From positions 171,752 to 235,751 of the forward strand of contig JAUJOE010000003.1 of the NCBI GenBank assembly GCA_030447805.1: a DNA stretch of 64,000 nt, in the 5' to 3' direction. Source of the stretch: Nocardioidaceae bacterium (GTDB lineage Bacteria > Actinomycetota > Actinomycetes > Propionibacteriales > Nocardioidaceae). The translations under genes were made by a program, and so were the position numbers. Shown here one piece after another: positions 49-63,618 of this stretch (position 1 is the first letter of the stretch; every line of letters starts with the position of its first letter). The notes beneath the pieces were generated by a model. That model had not been told where the DNA came from and did not search any database. It saw only the letters and a list, made by a program, of their open reading frames with translations.

Positions 49-636
49 CTAGCGACCGCTGCTCTCGCGCTCGCCGCCCGGTCGCCATAGCACGTCGCCG
101 ACCTGCACGTTGGCGTGGCGGGCCAAGATGAAGAGCAGGTCGCTGAGGCGGTTGAGGTAGGTCAGCGCGACGGCGTTCATCGACGTTTCGTGCACGGTGA
201 AGGCCGCCCATCCCGACCGCTCAGCTCGCCGTACGACGGTTCGCGCGACATGCAGCAGGGCGGCCCCCGGCGTACCACCGGGCAGGATGAACGACCGCAG
301 CTTCTCCAACGGCTCGTTGTAGTGGTCGCACCAGCGCTCCAGCCGATCGACGTACTCCTGTTCCACCCGTAGCGGCGGAAAGTCTGGGTTCTGCACCGCT
401 GGCGTGCAAAGATCAGCGCCGACGTCGAACAGGTCGTTCTGCACGTGCGTAAGGACCTCCGCCACGTCGGCGTCCAAGTGTCCGAGGGCGAGCGCCACCC
501 CGATGGCGGAGTTGGCTTCGTCGACGTCGGCGTACGCGGCCAGTCTCAGGTCGGTCTTCGTGGTCTCGCTCATGTCGCCGAGACGGGTGGTGCCGGCGTC
601 GCCGGTGCGGGTGTAGATCTTCGTCAGGTTGACCAT
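49..636 (-). CDS. Cob(I)alamin adenosyltransferase, PduO type
   Basis: Enzymes of this family transfer the 5'-deoxyadenosyl group of ATP to cob(I)alamin, making coenzyme B12 in the cytosol. The 195-residue product carries the N-terminal ATP-binding signature TRTGDAGTT at residues 9-17. Near the C-terminus are VRRAER and LNRLSDLLFILAR, which line the active site in PduO proteins. Length is normal. An open frame runs 78 codons further upstream, but that stretch is low in complexity and unlike the family, so I start at the ATG giving MVNLTKIYTR. I see no clear ribosome binding site. It is transcribed away from the decayed acetyltransferase locus on its right and is not obviously in an operon. 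Confidence 0.9.
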   Translation of the reverse strand: MVNLTKIYTRTGDAGTTRLGDMSETTKTDLRLAAYADVDEANSAIGVALALGHLDADVAEVLTHVQNDLFDVGADLCTPAVQNPDFPPLRVEQEYVDRLERWCDHYNEPLEKLRSFILPGGTPGAALLHVARTVVRRAERSGWAAFTVHETSMNAVALTYLNRLSDLLFILARHANVQVGDVLWRPGGERESSGR

Positions 637-60926: not shown

Positions 60927-61619
60927 CTAGGCCGGGCGGAGCAGGGGCGGCATGAGCAACTCAGCCAGGCCGCGCCGGTAGAGCCGAGCGGGCCGGCCGC
61001 CGTTCCGGGTTGTCGTCTTCACCGTCGGCATCAGGAACCCCGTCGCTCCGGTGACCTTTCGGTGGAAGTTCCGCGGGTCGAGCGGGACGCCCCACACCGT
61101 CTCGTAGACCTCACGCAGCTCCCCCACGGTGAACTCTGGCGCGCAGAACGCCGTGCCCAGCGGTGTGTATTCGAGCTTCGAGCGGGCTCGCTCGACGCCG
61201 TCGGCGAGGATGACCGCGTGGTCGAAGGCCAGCTTCCCCGTGCCAGCGAGGACGTCGGCGACCGGCCGCCACGCCGCATCGGCGGCATCTGAGCCGGCCA
61301 CCGGGTCTGGGAGGTCGGGCCCTAGCGCGAGGTAGGCGACGCTCACCACGCGCATCCGCGGGTCACGCTTGGGGTCGCCGTAGCTGCGCAGTTGTTCGAG
61401 GTGTACCGGCAGATCGCTGACGCTCGTTTCCTCGGCAAGCTCGCGGCCGGCCGCGGTGTCGAGGTCCTCGTCGGGCTCGACGAAGCCGCCGGGCAGGGCC
61501 CATCTCCCCTTGTACGGCGCCCCGGCCCGCCGCACCAGCAACACGCACAGCTCGGCGTCTCTCAGGGTGAGCACCACCAGGTCGACGGCGACGGCGGCCC
61601 GGGGCGGTTCGTACGACAT
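60927..61619 (-). CDS. NrtR-like NUDIX regulator (NUDIX plus winged helix)
   Basis: A 230-residue protein. Residues 1-140 are a NUDIX fold with box GGFVEPDEDLDTAAG, RELAEETSV at about 44-67. All catalytic glutamates and the Arg are kept, but the final Gly is Ser. Residues about 150-230 are a winged helix (FTVGELREVYETVWGVPLDP, RNFHRKVTGATGFLMP, GGRPARLYRRGL), the layout of NrtR repressors, which sense ADP-ribose or related NAD metabolites. It is divergent from the SPFH gene, with two palindromes between, so it probably regulates that operon and itself. The ATG gives MSYEPPRAAVAVD; a GTG three codons upstream is possible. Confidence 0.88.
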   Translation of the reverse strand: MSYEPPRAAVAVDLVVLTLRDAELCVLLVRRAGAPYKGRWALPGGFVEPDEDLDTAAGRELAEETSVSDLPVHLEQLRSYGDPKRDPRMRVVSVAYLALGPDLPDPVAGSDAADAAWRPVADVLAGTGKLAFDHAVILADGVERARSKLEYTPLGTAFCAPEFTVGELREVYETVWGVPLDPRNFHRKVTGATGFLMPTVKTTTRNGGRPARLYRRGLAELLMPPLLRPA

Positions 61620-61631
61620 GGTCCACACCCT

Positions 61632-61686
61632 ATCTCGTCATCTTGACATTAACTGCTGGCGACTGTTAACGTCATACTGACGATAA
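61632..61686. promoter_or_regulatory. Two 21-bp palindromic operators over facing promoters
   Basis: Site 1 (61632-61652): ATCTCGTCA, spacer TCT, TGACATTAA. Site 2 (61666-61686): TTAACGTCA, spacer TAC, TGACGATAA. Both have the form xxxxCGTCA-N3-TGACxxTAA; their centres are 34 bp apart, about three helix turns. A plus-strand promoter TTGACA (61643-61648), 18 bp, TAACGT (61667-61672) and a minus-strand promoter ATGACG, 18 bp, TAATGT (61651-61646) are embedded. Each site covers the -35 of one promoter and the -10 of the other. Confidence 0.6.
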
Positions 61687-61696
61687 AGGAGGAGTC

Positions 61697-62704
61697 ATGG
61701 CAGACATCCAGTACTACCCGTTCGTGCGGCATCTTCGAGGCACCCCGACCGTTCACCTGCGCCAACAGCGCCGCGGCAGGCTCGTTCACGAGGGGGTCGG
61801 CTTGGCGTTCTGGTTCCGGCCGCTGTCGGCGGTGCTGAGTGAGATCCCGGTCGACGACCGCGAGCTTCCGCTGCTGTTCCACGCCCGGACGAGCGACTTC
61901 CAGGACGTGACGGTGCAGGCGACGGTCACCTACCGCATTGTCGACCCCGCCCGCGCGGCCAGCCGCCTGGACTTCAGCATCGACCCCGACCGCGGTCGCT
62001 GGCGCTCGACTCCGCTCGAGCAGCTCGGCGGCCTGGTGGCCGAGCTCGCGCAGCAACCGGCCCTTGAGCTGCTCGCTGCGACGACGCTGCCCGAGGCGCT
62101 GGCCGCCGGGGTGGCGGGCATCCGCGACCGCATCCACTCCGCGCTGGCCGCCGACCCGCGGCTGCGTGACCTCGGCGTTGCCACGCTCGCCGTCCGGGTG
62201 GTGGCCCTGCGGCCGGAGCCCGACGTCGAGAAGGCGCTGCAGACTCCGACCCGGGAGCTGGTGCAGCAGGAGGCCGACCGGGCGACGTACGAGCGTCGGG
62301 CGCTGGCCGTGGAGCGAGAGCGCGCCATCGGCGAGAACGAGCTGCAGAGCCAGATCGAGCTGGCGGTTCGCGAGGAGCAACTGGTCGCCCAGCGCGGCCA
62401 GAACCAGCGGCGTCAGGCCGAGGAGTCGGCGGCCGCTGAGCGGATCGCGGCGCAGGGCGAGGCTGACCGGCAGCGGCTGGTGTCGGCCGGTCAGGCCGAC
62501 GCGACCCGCGTGATCGGCGAGGCCGAAGCGGCTGCAGAGACGGCGAAGCTGGCGGCGTACGACGGCCTCGACCCGCGGATCATCCTCGCGCTCGCAGCAC
62601 GCGAGCTGGCGGGAGACCTGCCCGAGATCGGCACGCTGAACCTGTCCCCCGACCTCCTCACAGCCGCGCTCGGCCAGCTCGTCGGGCCTCAGGGGCAGCG
62701 ATGA
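61697..62704 (+). CDS. SPFH/band-7 domain protein
   Basis: The protein has 335 residues. The SPFH domain lies at about 10-190 ([57 protein letters not shown]). A long charged coiled-coil runs from about 190 to 290 ([20 protein letters not shown]-like; [20 protein letters not shown]). No N-terminal membrane helix is seen, unlike flotillins and stomatins, so it is a soluble or peripheral ring-forming scaffold by inference. AAAGGAGGAGTC gives a near-perfect ribosome binding site. The stop overlaps the next gene (ATGA). Confidence 0.85.
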
Positions 62705-63618
62705 CCCTGTCGCCGCGGGCGGTGGTGGTGCACCGCCGTACCGAGCTCGACGAGTTGCTGGCGCGGCACGGTACGCGCGGAGCCGCCGACTTCTTCCTCC
62801 GCACCCGCGAGCGCAGCATCAGCGAGGTGCAGGGACGCCACGACGCCGTGAAGGGGGCGCTGGCGGACGTCAGCGCCGCTGTCCCGACGGACTGGCGCCG
62901 CGGCACCGTGGAGCGGGCCGACCTCGACCGCTTCTTGTTCGAGCCCGACGACGTCATCGTCGCGGTCGGGCAGGACGGACTGGTGGCGAACGTCGCGAAG
63001 TACCTCGACCACCAGCTCGTCATCGGCGTCAACCCCGAGCCGACCGTCAACCCCGGTGTGCTGGTGCCGGTGTCGGTGCCGGCCTTCGGCGACGTCCTGT
63101 CCGCGACAGCTAAGGGATCGGCGGACATCGACGCGCGCACGATGGTCGCGGCCACTTCGGACGACGGCCAGACGTTGCTGGCGGTCAACGAGGTGTACGT
63201 CGGCCACCCCAGCCACCAGTCCGCGCGCTACCGGCTGACGACACCGGCAGGTGAGAGCGAGCGGCAGTCGTCGTCCGGCCTCATCGTCAGCACCGGCACC
63301 GGAGCCACCGGTTGGTGTCGATCGATCTGGCTCGAGCGCCACAGTGAACTACCCCTGCCGGCTCCGGGCGAACCAGGGCTGGCGTGGTTCGTGCGCGAGG
63401 CGTGGCCCTCCCCCGCCACCGGCACGGAGTTGACCGAGGGGCTGCTGAGTGCTGGCGATAGTCTGGTGATCACCGCCGAGACCGACGGGCTCGTCGTCTT
63501 CGGCGACGGTATCGAGACCGACCGGCTCTCGCTCGCGTGGGGCCAGCGACTCACCGTGACCGTGGCTCCGACCGTGCTACGGCTCGTACGGCCAGCCGGT
63601 GGAAGCCGCTCGTTGTAA
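62701..63618 (+). CDS. NAD kinase-like protein (ATP-NAD kinase fold)
   Basis: A 305-residue protein with the order of motifs of NAD kinases. The phosphate loop reads [14 protein letters not shown] (GQDG at 90-93 in place of GGDG, Asp kept). The NE motif is NEVYVGH at 163-169 and [14 protein letters not shown] at about 192-205 corresponds to the TPTGS region. About 80 N-terminal residues ([20 protein letters not shown]) precede. It may phosphorylate NAD(H) or a related nucleotide; the changed first Gly makes the substrate uncertain. Some databases call relatives 'sugar kinase'. It is coupled to the SPFH gene by ATGA. Confidence 0.75.

Follow-up and report, generated by a model that had tools for sequence, protein, structure and literature searches.

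In M. smegmatis, NrtR represses its own gene and is released from DNA by ADP-ribose, and a C. glutamicum relative binds better in the presence of NAD+ (PMC6800001). ADP-ribosylglycohydrolase systems also have Nudix transcription factors, NrtR-like repressors that are predicted to sense ADP-ribose (PMC9503650). The locus studied here lies in a 64,000-nucleotide stretch of a Nocardioidaceae genome, referred to as the window. Like that of M. smegmatis NrtR, it combines a Nudix plus winged-helix protein, a divergently oriented target operon and a palindromic operator (PMC6800001), the latter a predicted one in the present case. However, the target is nadABC in M. smegmatis (PMC6800001) and would here be an SPFH gene followed by a NAD-kinase-like gene (NK). 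The sites differ likewise (GTTTTCGA-N7-TCGAAAAC in M. smegmatis, TTATCGTCA-N3-TGACGATAA here), and the Nudix box of M. smegmatis NrtR is degenerate and inactive, whereas the SPFH-linked proteins retain RELxEET, which is lost in the sampled nadABC-linked proteins. Given this retention, the NUDIX protein may also hydrolyse its ligand.

NrtR-like proteins encoded beside NAD genes in the same order (by eye nadA/B/C, pnuC and nicotinate phosphoribosyltransferase) share the domain layout of the window protein. In contrast to the present locus, these systems contain no SPFH gene, and their sites differ at a symmetric position, as in TTATAGTC before the Streptomyces pnuC-nadR operon. Compared with the ADP-ribosylglycohydrolase systems of PMC9503650, in which neither SPFH nor NAD kinase is mentioned, the window operon carries no glycohydrolase or phosphatase gene. 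Two NUDIX relatives (L155 4853-6331; L156 4807-6258, in coordinates that place the NUDIX gene on the minus strand) lie divergent from genes that look by eye like ADP-ribosylglycohydrolases and resemble the layouts predicted there. Others (L150, L110) adjoin a gene that, again by eye, is MTA/SAH-nucleosidase-like, followed in L110 by a 690-aa protein; this nucleosidase-linked cluster may be conflict-system-like. The NrtR-family trait of a ~21-23-bp palindromic operator before both the regulator's own gene and its target genes was found for the window locus by comparative genomics alone. Judged from sequence, the arrangement is a predicted NrtR-type autoregulated divergon, that is, one of a known kind.

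Genes of the divergent locus

The NUDIX gene (60927-61619, minus strand) encodes a 230-aa protein with an N-terminal Nudix domain (PF00293, 74 bits) and a C-terminal NrtR winged helix (PF21906, 51.7 bits), both above the Pfam cut-off, and matches PDB 3gz5/3gz6 with an E value of 2e-31. It reached 122 bits against the NCBIfam model NF050029 (NtrR equivalog), below the curated cut-off of 400, and is thus not classed as that equivalog. A PADLOC search returned a weak Nudix match and nothing else. Among named records the closest NUDIX protein, 90% identical, is from a Nocardioidaceae MAG. The plus-strand gene at 61697-62704 encodes an SPFH/Band 7 protein of 335 aa (PF01145) and is preceded by a Shine-Dalgarno sequence read from the DNA (AGGAGGAG, 61687-61694); its stop codon is overlapped by 4 bp by the start of NK (62701-63618, plus strand, 305 aa). 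All three genes also occur together as a block elsewhere in Propionibacteriales and in Catellatospora, while further families have the SPFH-NK pair.

NK gave weak matches to NCBIfam NAD kinase models and no reported match to Pfam NAD_kinase. Its predicted fold is clearly similar to PDB structures of NAD kinases (E 4.5e-16). In the alignment of its homologues GQDGL stands in place of GGDGT, with the motif Asp kept. A near-invariant VGQDGLVAN motif, together with a 10-residue stretch of its own, suggests that NK is an enzyme distinct from the housekeeping NAD kinase; a canonical NAD kinase match is found elsewhere in the source genome. Neither the SPFH nor the NK protein matched an entry in PHROGs.

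Two conserved elements on the SPFH promoter

Two 21-bp elements lie in the intergenic region, predicted operator site 1 (ATCTCGTCATCTTGACATTAA, 61632-61652, centre 61642) and site 2 (TTAACGTCATACTGACGATAA, 61666-61686, centre 61676), the latter with 1 mismatch to the consensus TTATCGTCA-N3-TGACGATAA. A first-pass annotation had reported them as palindromes with centres 34 bp apart, and on re-reading its sequences and coordinates proved correct. The elements are real and conserved, but the description as palindromes is apt only in part: 5/9 arm positions pair in site 1 and 8/9 in site 2, and 21-mers with at least 8/9 arm pairs occur in the window 19 times, where a Markov model predicts 17.5. 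Palindromicity was consequently discarded as evidence, and this chance-level symmetry is what could be said for regarding the likeness of the sites as coincidence, or as mere promoter sequence. Conversely, the two sites share 15 of 21 letters on opposite strands, a match equalled by no other 21-mer in the window, and this likeness is not due to chance. Both were present in 77 of 80 distinct regions upstream of SPFH and NAD-kinase-like operons from Actinomycetota, so that the conservation expected upstream of orthologues by the first-pass annotation was borne out and the elements are more than a chance occurrence. The halves outside the promoter hexamers (TGACGATAA of site 2, TTATCGTCA of site 1) are conserved too, and a reversed control pattern had zero matches in 28 of the 29 scanned genomes. 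The alignments already refute coincidence, to which we attach a negligible probability.

The source genome (G000; 2.5 Mb, 71%-complete) contains site 2 as its only consensus match at ≤2 mismatches. A genome-wide regulon was therefore not adopted for it; two matches with 3 mismatches lie on contigs C8 and C9. In 15 related genomes, consensus matches at ≤2 mismatches adjoin the NUDIX gene. A third CGTCA-N3-TGAC core, at window positions 622-633 at the start of a minus-strand gene (by eye a cobalamin adenosyltransferase), is probably a chance occurrence.

The plus-strand promoter proposed in the first-pass annotation, TTGACA-18-TAACGT, exists and is conserved. Its -35 hexamer TTGACA (61643-61648) falls inside site 1 and reads TTGACG/A/T in 76/77 regions, and its -10 hexamer TAACGT (61667-61672) falls inside site 2 after an 18-bp spacer, with TATCGT in most relatives. 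The spacer measures 17 or 18 bp in 75 of the 77 regions, giving the conserved form TTGACR-17/18-TATCGT. The +1 position of site 1 is always T, whereas its equivalent in site 2 varies, an asymmetry of the kind that a promoter would predict.

The sites are spaced by 33 or 34 bp in 72/77 regions, and this regularity could be taken to mean that two dimers bind cooperatively and in helical phase. However, 34 bp corresponds to 3.24 helical turns, not a whole number, and regions spaced by 39, 39, 42 and 45 bp also occur. In each of these a -10-like hexamer (TAGATT, GATAGT, CAGACT and TACAGT; GATAGT was read by eye) stands 17 bp from the -35, with site 2 shifted downstream. A 58-bp case (L128) apparently contains an extra site together with an inner pair at 33 bp. 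The common spacing follows from the placement of the -35 and -10, 17/18 bp apart, in the two sites, and since promoter geometry accounts for the 34 bp, a phase imposed by the protein is unlikely. The earlier description of the sites as phased is thus contradicted by the spacing variants.

A probable leaderless promoter of the NUDIX gene

A probable -10 hexamer of the leaderless type, TAGGGT (61632-61627, minus strand), precedes the ATG at 61619 by 7 nt. In 61/66 orthologues TAnnnT lies 6-8 nt ahead of the NUDIX start codon (5/66 lacked it there), against a background of 0.13% per position when the same test was applied to the gene body. Its distance from site 1 ranged from -2 to +8 across orthologues, with one outlier at +47. 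The motif has the same form as the actinobacterial leaderless promoters of M. tuberculosis, which carry a TANNNT -10 without a conserved -35 (PMC3898074). The NUDIX gene is thus probably leaderless and transcribed from TAGGGT, and such a promoter favours the ATG at 61619 as translation start over the less likely GTG at 61628.

The minus-strand promoter of the first-pass annotation, ATGACG-18-TAATGT, was rejected, as TAnnnT occurs at the place of TAATGT in only 7/66 orthologous regions, compared with the 61/66 just before the start codon. The proposed symmetric layout of facing promoters is likewise unsupported: TAGGGT sits at the outer end of site 1, which leaves site 2 outside the NUDIX promoter. 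A -35 in one site and a -10 in the other consequently applies to the plus promoter and not to that of the NUDIX gene. That the sites overlap both promoters nevertheless stands, with the SPFH hexamers within the sites and the NUDIX TAGGGT at the edge of site 1.

Candidate regulator and proposed mechanism

The divergent NUDIX protein, which carries an NrtR winged helix, very probably binds sites 1 and 2. This assignment is read from sequence, and another regulator might instead recognise them, the NUDIX protein being a mere neighbour. Yet the NUDIX gene lies apart from the SPFH-NK operon in each of the ten Streptomyces genomes scanned; it carries one site there, the remote SPFH operon carries two, and few or no further matches are found beyond these loci. 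Moreover, three Nocardioidaceae genomes with other NUDIX types only (G003, G025, G065) possess the SPFH-NK operon without the sites, though as they belong to one genus the joint absence of sites and regulator type possibly reflects a single event. Paralogues have related but different sites, such as TTATAGTC-N5-GACTATTA at the Streptomyces pnuC-nadR operon. The unlinked Streptomyces match, the joint absence in three genomes and the distinct paralogue sites together point to the NUDIX protein, as first proposed, and we consider a different reader highly unlikely. A single factor at both sites is likewise supported by their joint conservation in the upstream regions. In the tree, SPFH-linked NUDIX proteins are placed close to the unlinked Streptomyces ones, and both are separated from the nadABC-linked type (99/95 support), with some nucleosidase-linked relatives interspersed among the SPFH-linked ones.

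Sites of the paralogous type in Streptomyces (TTATAGTC-N5-GACTATTA / GACTATAA) were seen before pnuC-nadR and a second NUDIX gene (L231 1501; G409:C26:11850-11870). Two perfect palindromes with 9-bp arms were also encountered in two Streptomyces genomes, at places other than the SPFH and NUDIX loci, ATATCGTCA-N3-TGACGATAT (G389:C13:121210-121230, L240) and one resembling ATATCGTCG-N3-TGACGATAT (G363:C10:144186-144206, L242).

The reading that we favour, and regard as very likely, is that the two sites are operators of the divergent NrtR-type NUDIX protein, whose occupancy shuts the SPFH/NK operon and limits the regulator's own synthesis until a pyridine-nucleotide ligand releases it. It is supported by the conserved sites and promoter elements, the joint presence and absence of regulator type and sites, and the scarcity of other good sites in the genomes scanned. 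One NUDIX dimer would occupy each 21-bp site. Site 1 would cover the SPFH -35 and abut the leaderless-type -10 from which the regulator gene itself is transcribed, and site 2 would cover the SPFH -10 together with its start region, so that occupied sites would keep the SPFH/NAD-kinase-like operon off and curb synthesis of the regulator. The ligand releasing the protein from DNA would most likely be ADP-ribose, although the preference of the C. glutamicum relative for NAD+ means that it may differ. Physical binding, the direction of control and the ligand are the parts of this mechanism that we infer. As the sign of regulation is among these, the NUDIX protein might instead activate the SPFH operon. 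However, both sites lie on the SPFH core promoter hexamers and against the NUDIX -10, and the characterised NrtR proteins repress; the protein is most likely a repressor, and activation appears very unlikely.

While the divergon is of a familiar kind, an SPFH gene followed by a NAD-kinase-like gene (GQDGL) is apparently undescribed as an NrtR-type target. Among the papers searched, none names SPFH alongside both NAD kinase and Nudix, or alongside an operon; the novelty of the target is provisional, as the 2008 NrtR regulon paper (PMC2330246) or RegPrecise may already predict this regulon. The regions spaced by 39-45 bp and the genomes without sites offer natural material for testing operator spacing and regulator identity. 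The analysis provides a defined operator, a promoter and a likely regulator for an uncharacterised SPFH/NAD-kinase-like pair of many Actinomycetota, including Streptomyces, and links these two genes with a family of regulators already known from NAD and ADP-ribose control. Tentatively, an ADP-ribose-responsive, catalytically competent NrtR branch could control a two-gene module of an SPFH membrane scaffold and a specialised NAD-kinase-like enzyme acting on something other than NAD itself (e.g. an ADP-ribose-related nucleotide), which would amount to a so far unrecognised and, across Actinomycetota, widespread NAD(P)/ADP-ribose stress response.
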